64,000 nucleotides of DNA, from assembly GCF_001426685.1 (NCBI RefSeq), contig NZ_LMFB01000015.1, forward strand, positions 185,657-249,656. The letters are read 5' to 3'. The notes under the pieces were generated by a model, which searched no databases, was not told where the DNA came from, and saw only the letters and a program-made list of their open reading frames with translations. This document shows, piece by piece, positions 3-37,278 of the stretch (position 1 is its first letter; each line of letters begins with the position of its first letter). Origin of the DNA: Rhizobium sp. Root483D2 (GTDB lineage Bacteria; Pseudomonadota; Alphaproteobacteria; Rhizobiales; Rhizobiaceae). Made by a program: the position numbers and the translations under genes.

Positions 3-548
3 GTGGTTAATGCCGCAGGCGGCTGGGCCGATCAGACCGCAGAGCTCTTCGGCGTCAAGCCGCTCGGCATCGTCCCGCACCGGCGCACCGCCATCACCAT
101 CGACCTTCCCGAGGGGATCGATATTTCGGCCATGCCGGAGATCAATGAGATCGACGAGGAGTTCTACATGAAGCCCGACGCCGGCCGCCTGTTCGCGAGC
201 CCCGCCGATGCCACCCCGTGCGAGCCCGGTGATGTCCAGCCCGAGGAACTCGATGTCGCCTGGGCCGCGCACTATGTCGAGGAGGCGACCACGATCCCGG
301 TCCGCCGCGTGGCCAAGAGCTGGGCTGGCATGCGCAGCTTTTCGCCCGACAAGCTGCCCGTCATCGGCTTTGCGGCCGGACAGCCGGACTTCTTCTGGCT
401 GGCGGGACAAGGCGGCTACGGTATCCTGACCTCGCCCGCCCTTGGCGCCCTGGCGGCTAGCCTTTTGACCAGCGAGCCGCATCCGGAAGGGTTCGGCACG
501 ATGGGGCTTGACCCCGCACGGTTCAACCCGCTCCGATTCACGGCCTGA
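3..548 (+). CDS. FAD-dependent amine/amino-acid oxidoreductase, C-terminal part
   Basis: Partial gene, cut by the left window edge; the frame is open from the first bases, so the GTG at position 3 is an internal Val codon and not a start. The 181 visible residues fit the C-terminal half of the DAO (glycine/D-amino-acid oxidase) family: a substrate-domain strand with VNAAGGWAD near the start, then the conserved closing segment SWAGMRSFSPDKLPVIG, and the flavin-contacting GQGGYGILTSPA around residues 135-146. Such enzymes oxidise an amine or imino acid with FAD and pass electrons to oxygen or a carrier. The substrate cannot be told from this piece. The stop overlaps the 3' end of the convergent UdgX gene by 11 bases. 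Confidence 0.85.
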   Translation: MVNAAGGWADQTAELFGVKPLGIVPHRRTAITIDLPEGIDISAMPEINEIDEEFYMKPDAGRLFASPADATPCEPGDVQPEELDVAWAAHYVEEATTIPVRRVAKSWAGMRSFSPDKLPVIGFAAGQPDFFWLAGQGGYGILTSPALGALAASLLTSEPHPEGFGTMGLDPARFNPLRFTA

Positions 549-2058
549 TATCATCCATTGCGCTGCTCCGCCCGCCCGCCGGACTTATCTTTCGCCCGAA
601 TTCGGCGGCACGCGCAATATCCGAGCGAAACCGCGCCATTTCCTCCATCCTGCGGCCCTCGTCCGGGATGCGCAGCAGATAGGCCGGGTGCACGGTCACC
701 AGCAACGACTGCCCGGCATCGATTTGCAGCATCTCGCCGCGCAGATCTGCCAGCCGCTGGCGGCTGTCGGTCAGCGCCATCAGCGCGGTTGATCCCATCG
801 CCACGACAAGCTTTGGCTTGACCAAAGCCAGTTCCCGCGTCAGCCACCATTTGCAATGCTGCACCTCGCCGACATTCGGCTTTTGATGGATTCGGCGCTT
901 ACCGCGTGGCTCGTATTTGAAATGCTTGACCGCATTGGTGACATAGGTGTCCTTGCGGTCCAGCCCCACATCCTGGGCAACCTTGTTGAACACCGCACCT
1001 GCCGGGCCGACGAAGGGCCGGCCGGCCAGATCCTCCTGATCGCCCGGCTGCTCGCCGACGATCATGACCGCGGCATCCTGCGGCCCCTCGCCGAATACGG
1101 TCTGCGTTGCCCGGCAATGCAGGGCGCAGCGCGTGCAGTGACGCGCTTCCTCGCGAAGCTCCTCCAACGTTCCGGCCGGTGGCTGGGCAATTTCGGGTTC
1201 GGCTTGCGCGACCGCCTGCAGCCGCTGGTGAAACAATGGCGCCTCGCTGGCCGCGCGCTCGGCCATCGCAATGACGCTCGCCTCTGCCCCGGCAATCAGC
1301 CCCGGAATGAGCCCGGCTTCCGGCAGGTTCTTCCAGTATTTCTTTGGCATCTCCGTCATCATCATCTTCACCTTGAGACGGGCCGGATTGAAGATGCTGG
1401 AAAAATAGGTGCGCCAGAGCATATCGGTGCTATCCGTCAGCATCGGATTTTCCGCAGGTTCGGTTGAAACCGACAGGCTCTCGCCATCCCAGGCCGCCGT
1501 TCCCCTCGGCGTGGCGATGATCCAGTCCATATCGGTAAACCGGCGCTGAAAGAACGGCGCCACACGCGAAACGATATGATGATCCGGTTCGAACCAGGCC
1601 AGAAATCGCCGCCGCGCATGCCCTTCCCCGATGTCGAACTCCTTGAACCGGACGAACGCCGTCATCTTGTGGCAATCGCGCCGCACGGATTTTTCCATCG
1701 CCCGCAACTGCGCCACATCCGCATCGGAGACCACTTCCAGAAGCGCGCGCTCCCCCTGCAGCCGGAAGAGAACCCGGTAGAGAAGCTGGAAACGCAAGGG
1801 ATCGCTATGGCAGATCACCGCCTGCGCCAAGGACAGGAAGGCCTTTGGCACGGTCAAGGAGGCCCCTGAAGTAACGATTGCCCTGCCGGGCGAGGATAGA
1901 TCAGCCACGCCGGCATCCGCCCCGAACAGGTCGCCCGCCGCATCGCTCCTGCACCGCCAGTCGATCCCGCGCGGTGGCGTGCCGGCCAGCAGCAACGGCC
2001 GCGCAGCCTCCCGCCACTCGGTCAGATCGCCCCGGCCCTCCAGAAGAACCGTCGCCAT
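538..2058 (-). CDS. udgX: UdgX-family uracil-DNA glycosylase with N-terminal DUF4130-type domain
   Basis: 506 aa. Residues 1 to about 250 match the DUF4130-like domain usually linked to this family; residues 300-500 form a family-4-like uracil-DNA glycosylase. Visible motifs are GEQPGDQE (335-342), the UdgX-specific loop KRRIHQKP (387-394, His391) and HPAYLLR (457-463). In studied UdgX proteins the loop histidine traps the enzyme covalently on the abasic site after uracil excision. Candidate Fe-S ligands are Cys308, Cys311 and Cys402; His379 (in TNAVKHF) sits where family-4 enzymes carry another Cys. The frame is open 27 codons further upstream, but the ATG at 2058 shares one base with the stop of the radical SAM gene (TAATG), so translational coupling supports this start. 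It is the second gene of a LexA-boxed operon. Confidence 0.9.
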   Translation of the reverse strand: MATVLLEGRGDLTEWREAARPLLLAGTPPRGIDWRCRSDAAGDLFGADAGVADLSSPGRAIVTSGASLTVPKAFLSLAQAVICHSDPLRFQLLYRVLFRLQGERALLEVVSDADVAQLRAMEKSVRRDCHKMTAFVRFKEFDIGEGHARRRFLAWFEPDHHIVSRVAPFFQRRFTDMDWIIATPRGTAAWDGESLSVSTEPAENPMLTDSTDMLWRTYFSSIFNPARLKVKMMMTEMPKKYWKNLPEAGLIPGLIAGAEASVIAMAERAASEAPLFHQRLQAVAQAEPEIAQPPAGTLEELREEARHCTRCALHCRATQTVFGEGPQDAAVMIVGEQPGDQEDLAGRPFVGPAGAVFNKVAQDVGLDRKDTYVTNAVKHFKYEPRGKRRIHQKPNVGEVQHCKWWLTRELALVKPKLVVAMGSTALMALTDSRQRLADLRGEMLQIDAGQSLLVTVHPAYLLRIPDEGRRMEEMARFRSDIARAAEFGRKISPAGGRSSAMDDIRP

Positions 2059-3290
2059 TACAAGAGCGCCAGCTGTTCGGGCTTGGGCTCGAACATGGCC
2101 CGCAGATCGGAGCGATCGATCAGCCGGTGCGGTGTCCAACCCTCCGTCACAACGAAGGACTGCACCTTCTTCACCGAAACATGGAGCCGCGCCAAGTCCT
2201 CCAGCCGCAAACGCCGATGGCGCCGCGCCGACAGGATACCGTTGACGGCCTTCGTTCCCAATCCCGGCACCCGCAGCAGCATCTCGCGTTCCGCCGTGTT
2301 CACATCCACCGGAAAGCGATGCCGGTTGACCAAAGCCCAGGCAAGTTTCGGGTCGAGCTTCAGGTCCAGCATGCCATCGGGCTGGTTCTCGGTAATCTCC
2401 TCAATGCCAAAGCCATAAAACCGGTAGAGCCAATCCGCCTGGTAAAGCCGGTGCTCGCGCATCAGCGGTGGCTTGATCAAAGGCAGGTTCTTTGACGCAT
2501 CGGGAATGGGGCTGAAGGCGGAATAATAGACCCGGCGCAGCCCGTAGCTGCCGTAAAGCCGGGCGCTGGTCCCGAGGATCACCTTGTCATTGGCTTGATC
2601 GGCGCCGACGATCATCTGCGTGCTCTGGCCTGCCGGCACGAAGCGTTTGCGCCGCTTGGTTTGCAGCGTCGGATCATTGGCGGCCTCGATCTTCAGCCTG
2701 AGCTCGCCCATCGACTTGCGGATATTGGCCGGCCGCTTTTCCGGCGCCAGCCGCGTCAGCCCCGTGTCGGTCGGCAGTTCGATATTGATCGACAGGCGGT
2801 CGGCATAAAGACCCGCCTGCTCGATCAGCAGCGGCGAGGCTTCGGGAATGGACTTCAAATGGATATAACCGCCGAAATTATGGGTAACGCGCAATTCCCG
2901 GGCGATGCGCACCATTTCCTCCATCGTATAATCCGACGAGCGAATGATCCCCGAAGAGAGAAAAAGGCCTTCGATATAATTGCGCCGGTAGAATTCCAGC
3001 GTCAGCCAGACGACCTCCTCGACGCTGAACCGCGCGCGCTCGACATTGCTGGATGACCGGTTGATGCAATAGGCACAGTCATAAATGCAGAAATTCGTCA
3101 TCAGGATTTTCAACAGCGAAATGCAGCGGCCATCCGGCGCATAGGCATGACAGATGCCGGACCCTTCCGTCGATCCCAGACCGCCCGATTTGGAGGAATC
3201 CCTCTTCACCGTGCCGCTCGAAGCGCAGGAAGCATCGTATTTGGCAGCATCGGACAGGATGGCCAATCGTTCGTTCAGCGATTTCTTCAT
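2058..3290 (-). CDS. Radical SAM protein of the UDG-linked DNA modification/repair family
   Basis: 410 aa. The radical SAM cluster motif CX3CX2C is at Cys68, Cys72 and Cys75, followed by a TIM-barrel-like region (AIRE-type strands such as IHLKSIPEASPLLIE and LSINIELPTD). A helix-hairpin-helix (RVPGLGTKAVNGIL) near residues 345-360 suggests DNA binding. Extra cysteines at 22, 47 and 56 could bind a further cluster. This architecture matches the family known as the putative DNA modification/repair radical SAM protein that is genomically tied to UDG-domain proteins; its reaction is unknown. It is the first gene of the operon with udgX. Its ATG lies 8 bases downstream of a TATCAT -10 hexamer, with no room for a Shine-Dalgarno site, so I predict a leaderless transcript. 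Confidence 0.9.
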   Translation of the reverse strand: MKKSLNERLAILSDAAKYDASCASSGTVKRDSSKSGGLGSTEGSGICHAYAPDGRCISLLKILMTNFCIYDCAYCINRSSSNVERARFSVEEVVWLTLEFYRRNYIEGLFLSSGIIRSSDYTMEEMVRIARELRVTHNFGGYIHLKSIPEASPLLIEQAGLYADRLSINIELPTDTGLTRLAPEKRPANIRKSMGELRLKIEAANDPTLQTKRRKRFVPAGQSTQMIVGADQANDKVILGTSARLYGSYGLRRVYYSAFSPIPDASKNLPLIKPPLMREHRLYQADWLYRFYGFGIEEITENQPDGMLDLKLDPKLAWALVNRHRFPVDVNTAEREMLLRVPGLGTKAVNGILSARRHRRLRLEDLARLHVSVKKVQSFVVTEGWTPHRLIDRSDLRAMFEPKPEQLALL

Positions 3291-3294
3291 GGTT

Positions 3295-3327
3295 GTTCAT
3301 GATACGTTCTTATCGCTCTTTGGTCAA
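3295..3327 (-). promoter_or_regulatory. SOS promoter with LexA box for the rSAM-udgX operon
   Basis: Read on the minus strand: -35 TTGACC (3322-3327), 17-bp spacer, -10 TATCAT (3299-3304). A perfect alphaproteobacterial LexA box, GTTC-N7-GTTC, occupies 3295-3309 and covers the -10 hexamer. The predicted transcription start is within about 3 bases of the ATG at 3290, giving a leaderless mRNA. LexA binding here would block RNA polymerase directly, so DNA damage should induce the operon. Confidence 0.85.
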
Positions 3328-3417: not shown

Positions 3418-3978
3418 ATGCCTTCCATCAACACATCGAAAATACTCATCCTCGCGACCCATGGCTACGAGCGCTCCGAACTGCGCGTGCCGCTGGATGA
3501 ATTGAAAAAGCGCGGCGCCGATATCAAGGTTGCTTCCGTCGAGAAGGACCCGATCAAAAGCTGGGACAAGAAGGATTGGGGCGATACCGTCAATGTTGAT
3601 CTTCTGGCCAAGGACGTGAAGATCGATGATTTCGACGCGCTGGTCTTGCCCGGCGGTCAAATGAACCCGGACATTCTGCGCCATGATGAAGATGCTATGC
3701 GCATCGTCAAGGAATTCATCGCATCCGGCAAGGTCGTCGCTGCCATCTGCCATGCGCCGTGGCTCCTGATCGAAGCCGATGCCGTGCGCGGCCGCAAGAT
3801 GACGTCCTATGCCTCGATCAAGACCGACATGAAGAATGCCGGCGCCATCTGGTCGGATGAGCCTGTCGTCACCGACAAGGGCATCATCACATCGCGCAAT
3901 CCCGGCGATCTCGACGCTTTCGTCAAGAAGATCGTCGAGGAAGTCGAAGAAGGCCGCCACGAGCGCCGCGCCGCCTAA
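3418..3978 (+). CDS. DJ-1/PfpI family protein (type 1 glutamine amidotransferase-like)
   Basis: 186 aa, the usual size for the PfpI/YhbO branch of the DJ-1 superfamily. The nucleophile-elbow motif AAICHAPWLL places the reactive cysteine at Cys111 with adjacent His112; LVLPGG (76-80) is the strand before it. Family members act as stress proteins, with glyoxalase, deglycase or peptidase activities reported for individual members; I cannot choose between these. A clear ribosome binding site (AAGGAGA) precedes the ATG. It is divergent from the SOS operon and followed after 30 bases by a general-stress flavoprotein, which fits a small stress-response pair. Confidence 0.88.
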   Translation: MPSINTSKILILATHGYERSELRVPLDELKKRGADIKVASVEKDPIKSWDKKDWGDTVNVDLLAKDVKIDDFDALVLPGGQMNPDILRHDEDAMRIVKEFIASGKVVAAICHAPWLLIEADAVRGRKMTSYASIKTDMKNAGAIWSDEPVVTDKGIITSRNPGDLDAFVKKIVEEVEEGRHERRAA

Positions 3979-31441: not shown

Positions 31442-34400
31442 TCAATGGAAGTTTCTCCCCTTCGGCATAACGTTCACAGTTTCGAGGAGGTCTTGGCGAT
31501 TCCCTGCCTCGTCATGAGGTGAGGCGTCTTTTCGAGACCGGTGTTTTTGCCGGTGATCGCCGGTCGGCCTTAGCACTTCATCGGATCTGGCATTGGCGCC
31601 AAAACCTTTCGCCTCTTTCTGGAGAATGCCGAGCGCCGGCGTCATGTCTTCCAGATGGCTTGCCACGACATGGATGACGCCGCTGGCACTTTGCAGGCGT
31701 CCCCTGATCTTGACCAGGCGCGCGCCCATGACGACCGAACGATAGGTCTCGAACACATTTTTCCAGATGATGGCATTGGCAACGCCGGTTTCGTCTTCAA
31801 GTGTCATGAAAATCACCCCCTTTGCCGTTCCCGGCCGCTGGCGCACCAGCACGAGACCCGCGATCGTCACCGTGCCGCCGTTTCGAACCGCATCCAGGCT
31901 GCGATTGGTAACGATACCCTGGCTTGAAAAATCCTCCCGCAGAAAGGAAACCGGGTGCGCTTTCAGTGACAGGCTGAGATAGCGGTAGTCATTGATCACA
32001 TGCTCGCCCTGCTGCATCTGCGGCAGGAGGACCTCAGGTTCATGCTGAAGCTCGTCATGACCCGCCTGTTCGAACAGCGGTAATCTTTCGGCTGCGGACT
32101 TTTCGTCGAGCGATTTGACCGCCCAGAGAGCCGCGCGACGATCAAGCCCGATCGATCGGAACGCATCCGCATCCGCAAGACGCTCGATGGCCGCGCGTGT
32201 CAGGCCGGACCGCAGCCACAGATCCCGCACCGAGGAATAACCGGCACCGCGATGGGCAACGAGTTTATCCTCCATATCCTGCTGCCGCAGGCCCTTGACG
32301 AGGGAAAAACCGAGCCGGATTGCCTTGCTGGTCTTGATGACACCCCGCATCTCCCTGTGCCGCGGCTCGATATCACGCGGATCAAACATCGCGTCCCCCT
32401 CAAGAGCGGCATCCCAGCTGGATATATTGATATCGACCGGAAGCACCTTGACCCCATGCTCGCGCGCATCCCGCACCAGCTGGGCCGGTGGATAAAAACC
32501 CATGGGCTGGGAATTAAGCAGGGCAGCGCAAAAGATGTCGGGATAATAGGTCTTGAACCAGCAGGACGCATAGACCAGCAAGGCAAAGGAAGCCGCGTGG
32601 CTTTCCGGAAAACCATATTCCCCGAAACCTTCGATCTGGCTGAAACACCGTTCGGCGAATTCGCGCTCATATTTGTGCCGGGGATTATTGACCATGCCTT
32701 CGATCATGCGATGCTTGAAGTGGGACACCTGTCCGGTCCGCCTGAACGTTGCCATCGCCCGGCGCAATTTATCGGCTTCCGTTGGTGAAAACCCGGCGGC
32801 CGTAATGGCAATCTGCATCGCCTGCTCTTGAAACAGCGGCACACCCAATGTTCGCCCCAGAACCTCTTTCAATTCTTCGCTGGGATAGTCGACCGGCCGG
32901 CCGTGCCGCCGATCCTCCCTGCGTTTCAGATAGGGGTGCACCATATTTCCCTGGATCGGGCCCGGCCGGACGATCGCGACTTCGATGACGAGATCATAGA
33001 ACTCCCGTGGCTGCAGGCGCGGCAGCATGCTCATCTGCGCCCGGCTCTCTATCTGGAAAACGCCGATCGTATCGGCGCGGCAGATCATATCGTAGACGGC
33101 CGGCTGAATGTCTTCATAGATCTGCGACAGTCTTTTGGGTTCATTGTAATGATTTTCCAACAGCTTGAAGGCCTTGGCGAGACAGGTGAGCATGCCGAGG
33201 GCCAGCACGTCGATCTTCAGAATTTTCAGGTTGTCCAGATCGTCCTTGTCCCATTCCACCATGTAACGATCGGGCATGGCCGTGTTCATGATCGGCACGA
33301 CCTCATCGAGGCGGTCCTTGGTGATGACGAAACCACCGACATGCTGCGAGAGATGACGCGGATATTCCATCAGCAGCCCGGCATAATTCAACACGCGCAA
33401 CGTGGTCGGATCCGCCATATCGAGACCGGCGGCCTTTGCCTGTTCCTGCGAAAAAGAGGTGGTCCACCAGCCCCAGATCGAGCTCGAAAGTGCTGATTGC
33501 ACATCCTCGGAAAGACCGAAGACCTTGGCCACCTCACGCCCGGCCGAGCGGGCACGGTAGCTGATGACAGCAGCGGCAAGGCCGGCATGCTCCTTGCCAT
33601 ATTCGCTGTAGATATATTGGATCACCTCTTCACGGCGGGCATGCTCGAAATCGATATCGATATCCGGCGGCTCGTCGCGATCCTGCGACAGGAAGCGATC
33701 GAACAAGAGAGTGAATTCCTGCGGATCGACTTCGGTGACGCCCAGGCAGAAACAAACCGACGAATTGGCCGCCGATCCCCGCCCCTGGCAGAGAATGCCT
33801 TTGCTGCGGGCAAAATTCACCAGTTTGTGGACGGTCAGGAAATAGGGCTCATATTCTTTGGCTTGAATGAGCTCGAGTTCATAAGCCAGCTGACGTTCGA
33901 CCTTTTCGGAAACGCCGCCGGGATAGCGAACCATTGCACCTTCACGGACAAACCGCTGCAATCTTTCCGCCGGAGTTTCTCCGTCAGCGCTCTCCGTTGG
34001 ATAATTGTGCTTCAATTCATCGAGATTGAAGGATAGCCGGCGAAAGAATTTGGCGGTGTTGGCAATGGCCTCTGGATAATCCTTGAAGATCCTGGTCATC
34101 TCCGCCGGATTTTTCAAATGCCGCTCGGCATTGGCCTGAAGGCGAAGGCCGGCCTGTGCGATCGTGACATGTTCCCGGATGGCAGTGACGACATCCGCCA
34201 CCGGCCGATGCTCCGGCGCATGATAAAGCGCATCATTGGTGGCAATCAGACGGGTTCCCGTCTTCACGGCAATGGCGGCCAGGCACGCGAAATCATGCCG
34301 ATCGAAACCGTCATAATGCGGTGTCATCCCAAGATGGAGCCGGTGCCCGGCATACTCGCCGAGCTTGGACAAAAGGCTTGATAGCGCCTGCGCATTTGGA

Positions 34401-34798
34401 CGCCCCGCACCTTCCAGAACAATCAGTTGAAGCTCGTCCTGCCATTCGAGCAAATCCGAAAGGAACAACGTGCAGGTCCCCTTCTTTGAGCGCAGGTTTC
34501 CCGCACTCAGCATGCGGCACAGATGCGCCCAGCCCCGCCGGTCGCGCGGATAGGCAAGAATATCCGGCGTATCATCGGCAAAGATCAGCCGCGCGCCGGG
34601 TTGAAACGCATAATTCTCAAGCTTTGCCTTGGCATGAGCACGGACCACGCCGGCGACCGTGTTGCGATCGGCAATGCCGAGACCCGCAAGCCCGATCTTC
34701 TGGGCGGTGACCACCATGATCTCGGCCGGCGCCGATCCCTCCAGGAAGGAATAGTTGGTTCTGGCGCCAAGCTCATAAAAGACCGGTGCAGCACTCAT
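31442..34798 (-). CDS. dnaE2: Error-prone DNA polymerase DnaE2
   Basis: 1118 aa, standard for DnaE2. N-terminal PHP domain ([22 protein letters not shown]), the polymerase core with [16 protein letters not shown] and the acidic triad region [12 protein letters not shown], then the fingers, an HhH, and an OB fold near residues 980-1060 ([29 protein letters not shown]). The C-terminus [11 protein letters not shown] is the usual DnaE2 ending. It is the SOS mutagenic polymerase, recruited by ImuB. The ATG at 34798 overlaps the imuB stop (ATGA); longer upstream frames are read-through. A decreased-fidelity C family enzyme. Confidence 0.97.
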
Positions 34799-36417
34799 GC
34801 GAAAATTCCATGCAGGAACCATTGCGGCGGCGCGACCGTCTGGCCGTAGAGACCATCGCGAAACAGCCAGAAACGCCGGCCCTCCACATCCTCGATCCGG
34901 AAATAATCCCGCGTCAGCGCATCTTCTCCGTCGATCCACCATTCGCCGGCGATCCGCTCGGGACCTTCGGCCTTGGTCACCTGGTAAATGATCTTGCGCC
35001 ATTTGAAACTTGCCGGCGCCCCTTCCGGCAATTCGGCCGCGATCGCATCCACCCGTTCCGGATGGCGGAAAAGCCGCAAGGGGCGAACGGAGGGGAGATC
35101 AGCGGCTTTGGGCCGATCAAGCCCCTGTTGCACAGCAAGCCCGGCAATATCTAAAACGGGTGAAAAAGAAGTCGCCCTTTCCGGCACATGGCTTTCCTGC
35201 AGCACCAGCGCGAAGAGGCTATCCGGCCCGAAGCGGGCCATGACCCGATCGGCAAAGGCCGACAGGGGGCGGGTCTGGTCCGACCGCCCGGAAAAATCTT
35301 CCTGCGTAGCAAGGTAGCGTTCCGTCTTCAGCACGCAGAGGCGCAGGATTTCAAAACCGAAACCTGCATCGAGATCATCATGAATGGCCTGAAGACGCTC
35401 GCGGTACAGCGCGGCGATGCGCTCCGGATCCTTGGAGGCGGCCGACATGGCGGCCCGGATACGAAAGACTTTACCATCCACCCGGAACAGCACGAGTTCA
35501 AACAGGCGGCCACCTTCCTCGCGCTCCTCCAAGCTTTGGCGCAGGCTTTTGGCAAGCTGCAATGTCAGCTGCAAAATATCGTCCTCATCCTGAATCGGAG
35601 AGGCAAGGCGGCGCTCCGCCGACAGGCTGGCCACCGGAAGGCGCGGCGAAAGCGGCTCGTCCTCGAAACCCAGCGCCTGATCGAGGCGCAGGAGCACCGA
35701 CGGGCCGAACCGGCGGGCCAACGGTGCGCGGGGCAGGGGAATGAGATCACCGGCGGTTTTCAGGCCGACGCGGGCCAGGGTCTCGATCGTGTCCAGGGGA
35801 AGCCTCAGTGCCGCAAGGGGCAGGGGAGACAGAACCTCTTCACCATCCTGCGGGCCGGCGATGTGCCCCGGCCGGTAGCGTGCCATGGCCCAGGAGAGCC
35901 CGGCCGAAGATGAGATGGCCCCCCGCACCTCGATGCCCAGACGGAAAAGCCTGAAGAGGATGTCGGCCAGAAGCGATTGCTCGCTGCCATGCAGATGGAC
36001 ACAGCCGGTAATATCCAGATAGAGCCCGTTCGTCCCGTCCATCGCCACAAGCGGCGTATAGCGGTCGCACCAATCGGCAAGCGAGGTCAAAAGGCCCTTG
36101 TCGGCAGCAGGATCGGCCGCAATGATCTCGATGCCGGGCAGCATCGCACGCGCCTCCGCCAGACCTTGCCCGCGTTTCAAGCCGGCCTTTTCCCCGCAGA
36201 TATCGAGAGCTGTAATGCGCATGGCATTCTGGATACGATCGACAAAGACCAGCGGCGGATGGTCAGGACGCTTTCTGGAAAGCCACGATACGCCCCATTT
36301 CGTCCGCGCCACCCGGTCCGCCGGCAGATGCGGAAAGTTCAGCGACAGAATACGCTGGCTGGAATTTTGCAGGAGACGCGGCTGTCTCTGGGACGGGATG
36401 TCGGAAACGGCGGGCAT
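34795..36417 (-). CDS. imuB: ImuB, Y-family polymerase-like mutasome factor
   Basis: 540 aa. Y-polymerase-like fold starting [16 protein letters not shown], with palm region [20 protein letters not shown] and little finger later. The catalytic acids expected of an active DinB are not all in place (LPADR where D-x-D is expected), so it is probably non-catalytic, bringing DnaE2 to the beta clamp. The start at 36417 has GGAG 11 bases upstream and lies inside imuA, overlapping it by 155 bases, which is longer than usual. Stop overlaps dnaE2. Confidence 0.93.
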
Positions 36418-37195
36418 GGGAACTCCATTCCATCAAAAGTTCAAGAGGTGCAAAGGCCCTGCTTTTCTCGACAGTGACCCGGAAGACCGGATTGCCGATG
36501 CTGCCGGCCAGCACCGATCCGTCCGGAAGCGGCCGCCCCGTGGCGGGGCTGGGGGCAATAAGGAACCGGAAGAGCGCACTGCTCGCCTCTTCGCCGCCCG
36601 CCTGCCGCAGGAGGAAAATCGGCACATGACCGGTCCGCGCCCGCATATGCAGGCGGCGGCTTTCGTTGAGGCCGAACTGGGCCGGGTTTCCCCGGACCTC
36701 CAGAATGATGGCCCTGAAGATCGGGACCGAGAGCGCCGCTTCGGCAATCCAGAGCGCATCAGCGATAGTGCGGGGACTGCTGAAAAGGCAGCAGCCAATA
36801 TCCAGCCCATAGGCCTGCAGCCCGCGGCCATAAGGAGCCCCCGCCTCCGCGCCCGTCATTCCCTGGCCGATCCACAGAATGGGTGACACGGCGTCAGCGC
36901 TTTGAACCCTCTGGCAAAGGGCGGCCAGCGCCAGCACAAAACCCATGGCCGCCCCGGCGTCGCGGGTTTCTGCCGCGCGGATTTCAGTGAGCCCGGCCAG
37001 CGGCAGGCCGCCATGCAGGACATCGTCGAGCGCGGCGATGCCGAGGGGGAGAACATGCCTGGAAACGTCCCTGCTGCCTGCGGGTTCAAAGCCTTCTGGA
37101 GCGCCCTTTCTGGCAGCCTTCAAAAGACCTGGCACGTTTTCGTTTTCCAGCCGCGCAATGGTTTCGCGCAGCGCAAAAAGACGCTCGCGCGTCAT
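36263..37195 (-). CDS. imuA: ImuA, RecA-like mutasome factor
   Basis: 310 aa from the ATG at 37195 (MTRERLFALRETIARLE), which has GGAG at the right distance. The longest frame begins at 37228, only 4 bases from the LexA box, so 37195 is preferred. RecA-like core: LPLGIAALDDVLHGGLPLAGLTEI, VLALAALCQ and ILEVRGNP; no intact Walker A is seen. It acts with ImuB and DnaE2 in SOS mutagenesis. The last 50 residues ([10 protein letters not shown] to FQKAS) overlap imuB and look low-complexity. Confidence 0.93.
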   Translation of the reverse strand: MTRERLFALRETIARLENENVPGLLKAARKGAPEGFEPAGSRDVSRHVLPLGIAALDDVLHGGLPLAGLTEIRAAETRDAGAAMGFVLALAALCQRVQSADAVSPILWIGQGMTGAEAGAPYGRGLQAYGLDIGCCLFSSPRTIADALWIAEAALSVPIFRAIILEVRGNPAQFGLNESRRLHMRARTGHVPIFLLRQAGGEEASSALFRFLIAPSPATGRPLPDGSVLAGSIGNPVFRVTVEKSRAFAPLELLMEWSSHARRFRHPVPETAASPAKFQPAYSVAELSASAGGPGGADEMGRIVAFQKAS

Positions 37196-37231
37196 GGGCG
37201 TCTGCTCCATGACGTCACTCCAATTCAAGTT

Positions 37232-37278
37232 GTTCCTGTTATGTTCCTATAGATTCCAGAGCTTCCCGGAAGAGTCAA
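37232..37278 (-). promoter_or_regulatory. SOS promoter with LexA box for imuA-imuB-dnaE2
   Basis: A perfect GTTC-N7-GTTC box lies at 37232-37246. On the minus strand, -35 TTGACT is at 37273-37278 and -10 AATCTA at 37250-37255, with a 17-bp spacer. The box covers the expected transcription start, the classical position for LexA repression. Confidence 0.9.

Follow-up and report, generated by a model that had tools for sequence, protein, structure and literature searches.

We analyzed a 64,000-nt stretch of contig NZ_LMFB01000015.1 from Rhizobium sp. Root483D2 (genome 6.04 Mb), called the window below, and concentrated on a two-gene operon that encodes a radical S-adenosylmethionine (SAM) protein and, downstream of it, a fusion of a DUF4130 and a UdgX domain (Table 1). 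A first-pass annotation had placed a perfect GTTC-N7-GTTC LexA box over the -10 element of a TTGACC-17-TATCAT promoter and a TAATG junction between the two genes. Direct reading bore out both: the box lies before the radical SAM gene, and the stop codon TAA of this gene (2060-2058) overlaps the start codon ATG of the fusion gene (2058-2056). The downstream gene had been called UdgX. A UdgX domain is indeed present, but the protein is a DUF4130-UdgX fusion and not UdgX alone.

The number of motif copies was rejected as evidence for a LexA site if taken by itself. GTTC-N7-GTTC occurred four times in the window, with 1.48 copies expected and four reached in 6 of 100 shuffles, and 181 times in the genome, compared with 143 copies of the reversed control pattern. 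Conservation of the box was much more telling. In a survey of 151 genomes of the same family, including the window's own, 67 encoded a radical SAM protein over the TIGR03916 cut-off, and all 67 loci (the window's counted) carried the perfect box, starting 17-34 bases 5' of the start codon. Loss of the box from close relatives that keep the operon, an outcome the first-pass annotation had named as contrary to its proposal, was looked for and seen in 0/67. A Caulobacter vibrioides/crescentus genome included as a control also gave a TIGR03916 match. A class survey of 289 genomes added 17 further loci over the cut-off, 16 of which had the box, and it was found in 77 of 81 loci comprising one contig from a viral collection and 80 loci from named genomes. 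The latter, the best 80 of at least 590 relatives, came from Rhizobium, Agrobacterium, Mesorhizobium, Paracoccus, Brevundimonas, Acetobacter, Sphingopyxis and others, one being a Xanthomonas; the family, class and named-genome sets overlap in part. All sets were then pooled with a phylum search and identical proteins removed, which gave 195 distinct alphaproteobacterial loci and 30 others (29 from other classes over the cut-off and the Xanthomonas locus L181). The repeat stretches L099-L101 and L191, the far-phylum plasmid loci L269-L272 and L273 were dropped from these counts. The phylum search had 84 genomes over the cut-off; all 29 outside the class were read, and the alphaproteobacterial genomes G627, G636, G642, G654, G671, G703, G714, G751 and G773 were left out. 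A perfect box was present at most 120 bases upstream in 191 of the 195 alphaproteobacterial loci and the reversed pattern in 4, at a background rate of the box of 0.15% per 61 bp. The loci without a perfect box were L069, L114, L140 and L151: inspection by eye placed L114 and L151 a single mismatch from it and showed no box at L140, and the genome of L069 (G348) gave no LexA match over the cut-off. Rhizobium sp. Root483D2 itself has a single LexA over the cut-off, and its lexA gene carries its own upstream box, GAACACATATGGAAC.

Outside the class, GTTC-N7-GTTC was found in 0 of the 30 loci. There, CTGT-N8-ACAG was present in perfect form in 19 and within one mismatch in 24, where shuffles expect 0.15 and 1.7, respectively (region -80 to +16 of the start, with starts set from the protein alignment). 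G604, the one genome with this motif whose lexA promoter was read, carries CTGT-N8-ACAG at lexA too (L274). No such site within one mismatch was seen at L181, L230, L241 and L252, which are of a xanthomonad type, or at L204 and L248. The genome of L204 (G499) had no LexA match over the cut-off, and that of L248 (G761) had a near-full-length LexA match just under it (99.6 vs 110.95 bits). GAAC-N4-GTTC, the form of the Bacillus SOS box, occurred twice in the Bacillota plasmid copy L271, at -185 and -156; L272, also from Bacillota, had one such site with one mismatch. The SOS control predicted in the first-pass annotation was thus upheld by the conservation of the operator and by its exchange for CTGT-N8-ACAG in other classes. 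On this sequence evidence, LexA control of the operon is close to certain. Given the strong retention of the box in relatives, the operon is very probably activated by DNA damage.

Table 1. Features of the radical SAM operon and its predicted promoter; positions are those of the window.
Feature	Position	Strand	Remarks
-35 element TTGACC	3322..3327	-	read from sequence; 17-nt spacer (3321-3305) to TATCAT
-10 element TATCAT	3299..3304	-	within operator; 8 nt upstream of ATG (3290-3288)
Putative LexA operator GTTC-N7-GTTC	3295..3309		perfect box GTTCATGATACGTTC; coding strand GAACGTATCATGAAC
Radical SAM gene	2058..3290	-	410 aa; TIGR03916 rSAM_link_UDG
N-terminal stretch with C22, C47, C56, H48	3123..3227	-	237-238 of 239 aligned loci; candidate second metal site
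CX3CX2C motif (C68, C72, C75)	3066..3089	-	239/239 aligned loci
Helix-hairpin-helix-like region, residues 327-357	2220..2312	-	Pfam HHH_3, E 7.6e-4, 20 bits
DUF4130-UdgX fusion gene	538..2058	-	506 aa; downstream of radical SAM gene
DUF4130 domain (TIGR03915)	1315..2034	-	217 bits, cut-off 112
UdgX domain (TIGR03914)	610..1311	-	331.5 bits, cut-off 189.95
UdgX R-loop KRRIH, residues 387-391	886..900	-	expected cross-linking H391

A start site 6-8 nt past the -10 element would leave about 1-3 leader bases. The operon shows the arrangement expected of a leaderless mRNA, with the -10 element about 6-9 nt from the start codon and the Shine-Dalgarno sequence lacking. Among the 67 family loci, a TANNNT or TATNNN hexamer ended 5-12 nt before the start codon in 58, a TTG-type -35 element stood at 15-19 nt in 26, and a Shine-Dalgarno-like tetramer was seen in just 5. 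The box lay on the -10 element in 48 of these loci (starts -17 to -22) and just upstream of it in 19 (-26 to -34). In the 184 alphaproteobacterial loci with a box within 70 bases, TANNNT ended between -12 and -5 in 97; each of five adjacent windows of equal width gave 9-14. We consider a leaderless or near-leaderless mRNA quite probable here, and it is likely in most family loci. The corresponding proposal of the first-pass annotation stood to this extent, but not everywhere, as discussed below.

Of the 151 family genomes, 67 had the radical SAM protein and 66 had DUF4130; these were the same genomes with the exception of G043, whose radical SAM gene reaches a contig end. TIGR03916 proteins presumably pair with TIGR03915 or with a TIGR03915-TIGR03914 fusion, as is the case here for the downstream fusion. 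Over all 225 loci, the partner was a DUF4130-UdgX fusion in 181 (169/195 in Alphaproteobacteria, 12/30 in the others) and DUF4130 only in 34 (16/195 and 18/30, respectively), with the partner unreadable in 10 alphaproteobacterial loci. The DUF4130-only loci of Alphaproteobacteria kept the box in 14/16. Among the 25 genomes examined for these 34 loci, 23 contained no UdgX over the cut-off: a separate UdgX was found in 2/7 from Alphaproteobacteria and in 0/18 from the other classes. The plasmid copies from Bacteroidota and Bacillota (L269-L272) also had a DUF4130-only partner. The constant unit is the radical SAM protein together with DUF4130, and UdgX is dispensable to it. Service to UdgX was rejected as the core function of the radical SAM enzyme, and the first-pass suggestion that it resolves UdgX-trapped uracil sites is disfavoured as its main job, because the radical SAM-DUF4130 pair, usually with its operator, occurs in genomes without UdgX.

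Carriage by plasmids or phages does occur at times: at E 1e-20 a match was present in 158 of the 72,556 plasmid records, and at E 1e-10 in 10 of the 50,697 phage records. The contig IMGVR_UViG_3300006947_003566 (L182), filed as viral in IMG/VR, holds a copy of the radical SAM gene, perfect box included, and may be a bacterial fragment. An anti-phage system was considered and rejected, neither protein matching any PADLOC model.

The radical SAM protein matched TIGR03916, named 'putative DNA modification/repair radical SAM protein', with 568.2 bits (cut-off 343.5), and the general Pfam model Radical_SAM with 29.1 bits (cut-off 29.5). The CX3CX2C motif given in the first-pass annotation was confirmed as C68-C72-C75. 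Its cysteines are expected to hold the [4Fe-4S] cluster that binds SAM, and radical SAM enzymes with this motif generate 5'-deoxyadenosyl radicals. Three further cysteines and a histidine in the N-terminal stretch are retained in Pseudomonadota, Bacillota and Bacteroidota. In the alignment of 239 loci, repeats included, the single full exception was L273 (Gemmatirosa), where all four residues are lost and CX3CX2C is kept; the other case without C22 is a gap in L174. L273 (NZ_CP007129.1) is a plasmid homologue of 37% identity with no DUF4130 match in its stretch, possibly a paralogous family useful for comparison. The conservation suggests that C22, C47 and C56 probably hold a second metal site. 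The AlphaFold2 model of the protein had a mean predicted local distance difference test score (pLDDT) of 86.5, with low confidence at residues 22-32 and 34-43, and therefore does not establish the geometry of these cysteines. Its fold matched HydE (Z 17.9, 214 residues, 2.4 Å), lipoyl synthase (Z 17.8, 226 residues, 3.2 Å) and biotin synthase (Z 17.1, 213 residues, 2.5 Å), enzymes in which a further cluster is or can be present. Spore photoproduct lyase was not among the 50 fold matches listed, which does not exclude that fold.

The UdgX domain of the partner keeps its signature residues. Motif A, GEQPG, is found at residues 335-339. In a 60-row alignment, all 50 rows having the column of the R-loop histidine showed this residue, the rest of the loop being variable. 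In 153 complete fused partners, strict GEQPG was kept in 147 and strict K[RK]R[IL]H in 115. The model of the domain superposed on UdgX structures with Z 30 and 1.4 Å over 196 residues; when the whole fusion was searched, the UdgX domain accounted for the 50 matches listed.

RecA-triggered cleavage of LexA derepresses LexA operators. In the model we propose, LexA would sit over the -10 element and repress the operon. Upon DNA damage and RecA-triggered cleavage of LexA, RNA polymerase would make a leaderless or near-leaderless message for the radical SAM enzyme, with the DUF4130-UdgX protein made from it through overlapping translation. The radical SAM protein and DUF4130 would form the core, a DNA-directed pair of enzymes using 5'-deoxyadenosyl radical chemistry on a nucleotide that is damaged or unusual. 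The UdgX domain, in many but not all lineages, would be an accessory for locating uracil and keeping the resulting abasic site covalently bound. As a whole, we regard this LexA-repressed repair model with accessory UdgX as reasonably probable, and we lean, with similar reserve, to a DNA lesion as the substrate handled jointly with DUF4130. A more specific version is tentative and, to our mind, rather doubtful: that the six-cysteine radical SAM protein bears a second iron-sulphur cluster and forms with DUF4130 an SOS-induced DNA-lesion enzyme, kept under LexA through changes of the motif, to which UdgX was added later as a holder of abasic sites that hands the site over.

Several observations weigh against this model or limit its reach. 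In seven genomes of the f160 family (eight rows, L257 repeating L223) the box lies near -90, so that the mRNA there would not be leaderless. The two genes are far apart in G022 and G124 and 2.2 kb apart in G027; in all three the radical SAM gene retains the box and none in perfect form lies before the DUF4130-UdgX gene, hence joint induction is not universal. At the xanthomonad-type loci L181, L230, L241 and L252, the radical SAM gene is preceded by no LexA box of a known type. LexA is encoded in the genomes of L230, L241 and L252, and their lexA bears a TTAGTA-type box (TTAGTAGTAATACTACTAA) that is absent from the radical SAM gene in all three, so that a LexA-box account of these loci was rejected and LexA control is not universal either. 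Both Bacteroidota copies (L269 and L270) are without the two published Bacteroidetes motifs. Concerning the substrate, the fold of the radical SAM protein resembles that of HydE and of lipoyl and biotin synthases, which are not known to act on DNA, and the helix-hairpin-helix reported in the first-pass annotation appeared as a weak HHH_3 match, but below the curated Pfam cut-off of 27 bits.

Two of these exceptions came with observations of their own. About 39 bases 5' of the radical SAM start, at the place taken by the LexA box in other groups, the xanthomonad-type loci show a palindrome, GTCTCA-N5-TGAGAC, exact in three and one base off in L241, possibly the site of another regulator or a hairpin. 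In G124, the separate DUF4130-UdgX gene adjoins a ruvB-like gene (identified by eye), which has a GTTC-N7-GTTC box 85 bases upstream (L098, 1259-1273).

Other explanations have to be considered. The box could be a chance match or could serve the divergent PfpI-like gene at 3418, which begins 109 bp away. With 181 copies in the genome the motif is common, but its retention near the radical SAM start in 191/195 loci, split copies included, makes this hardly credible. The radical SAM enzyme could also release or repair UdgX-DNA cross-links. According to the accessible part of PMC10359453, UdgX removes uracil and becomes bonded to the abasic site, its precise physiological role being largely unknown, and RecA-dependent pathways or proteases are possible routes by which the complexes are resolved. 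The fusion of UdgX to DUF4130 in 181/225 loci and the cross-linking histidine kept in 50/50 rows would fit such a function. Nevertheless, the 34/225 loci with DUF4130 only, the 23/25 such genomes without UdgX over the cut-off and the DUF4130-only plasmid copies L269-L272 make it very unlikely.

Direct reversal of a pyrimidine lesion in the manner of spore photoproduct lyase, with DUF4130 as the lesion-binding subunit, would be in line with a radical SAM protein in a repair context under SOS control. The accessible parts of two papers point in this direction, one counting SplB-type proteins among SOS members (PMC8565304), the other tying DUF4130 to SplB-like proteins and UDGs and suggesting thymine modification (PMC3765255). 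NCBIfam, however, assigned TIGR03916 only and no family of spore photoproduct lyases, the best listed folds were those of HydE, lipoyl synthase and biotin synthase, and three extra cysteines are near-invariant, so that we consider this reversal unlikely. These same folds and cysteines, together with the NCBI product name 'putative DNA modification/repair', may rather suggest that the pair modifies a base or sugar, for example by inserting sulphur or a methyl group, and does so at sites of damage or in incoming DNA instead of repairing it. Modification of bases had also been raised in the first-pass annotation. We know of no such DNA modification, no defence-system model matched either protein, and a shared fold shows no function; we rate this explanation lower still, though above the release of cross-links.

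Further SOS-type sites were noted in the genome. An imuA-imuB-dnaE2 cassette lies 34 kb away in the window (31442-37228, minus strand), with a GTTC-N7-GTTC box at 37232-37246 directly before imuA. Its ImuA match was 44.6 bits, under the cut-off of 150, ImuB matched DNA polymerase IV models weakly, and the third protein matched 'error-prone DNA polymerase' over the cut-off with 1341.6 bits. Two overlapping GAAC-N7-GAAC boxes, 11 bases apart, are found 150-161 bases before an open reading frame (ORF) of 194 aa (L200/L201, G000:C44:57607-57632), possibly a further SOS gene. Another LexA-type box (L199, G000:C43:67535-67549) precedes an ORF with MCGRYTN, the start of SRAP (YedK/HMCES-type) proteins; its PRK09951 match was below the cut-off, and it may be another abasic-site protein under SOS in this genome. 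At the radical SAM gene itself, several relatives have two LexA-type boxes, 11 or 24 bases apart, as in L210 (about 46 and 22 bases upstream) and also in L012, L021 and L025.

If the more specific six-cysteine version is true, a widespread inducible chemistry of repair or tolerance would be missing from models based on E. coli. Retention of the operator throughout one class, and its replacement by another LexA motif in others, ties the enzyme pair to the DNA-damage response. The substrate would best be searched for after damage, with DUF4130 as essential partner; C22, C47, C56, C68, C72, C75 and H391 are the residues to mutate. The dispensability of UdgX to the pair also narrows the role of UdgX.

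The open-licence literature, most subscription papers lying outside its scope, gave us no description of the exchange of operators, of UdgX being dispensable, of the additional cysteines or of a leaderless start, and nothing that joins UdgX with radical SAM or names TIGR03916. The operon is not mentioned in the accessible text of PMC7739468, PMC1839093, PMC12907096, PMC3323433 and PMC4211646, nor does 'radical SAM' occur in that of the last four. COG4277 probably corresponds to the present radical SAM/helix-hairpin-helix family. The accessible part of PMC8565304 predicts, on comparative grounds, that a COG1573-COG4277 uracil-DNA glycosylase (UDG) operon of two genes is under SOS control in Bacteroidetes, reads it as base excision repair, and states that a UDG-based system under SOS had been reported earlier in Verrucomicrobia and Alphaproteobacteria, citing papers on the Verrucomicrobia LexA and the Caulobacter SOS regulon. 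DUF4130 is linked with radical SAM (SplB-like) proteins and UDGs in an SOS context in the accessible part of PMC3765255. The SOS link is therefore not new, and the 'new arm of the SOS response' suggested in the first-pass annotation is not supported.

The operon can be compared with the closest known systems. It shares with the Bacteroidetes COG1573-COG4277 operon a UDG gene and a second gene under LexA-type control, but has GTTC-N7-GTTC on the -10 element in place of the Bacteroidetes motifs, a DUF4130-UdgX fusion as partner and DUF4130 as the constant partner. As in the SplB or spore photoproduct lyase type, a radical SAM protein takes part in what would be SOS-linked DNA repair; here, however, it belongs to a different sequence family, has six near-invariant cysteines and is accompanied by DUF4130 in 66/67 family genomes. 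Compared with UdgX of Mycobacterium smegmatis, as described in the accessible part of PMC10359453, the present domain shares GEQPG, KRRIH with the cross-linking histidine and the fold (Z 30), whereas it is fused C-terminally to DUF4130, stands in a radical SAM operon and has HPAYLLR instead of HPSSLLR as motif B. The imuA-imuB-dnaE2 mutasome of the same window has the same type of LexA box, but performs translesion synthesis and not lesion chemistry. Finally, all three members of the NCBIfam trio TIGR03916, TIGR03915 and TIGR03914 were matched over their cut-offs. The names of the trio state neither regulation nor reaction, to which the conservation of the operator and the extra cysteines are added here.

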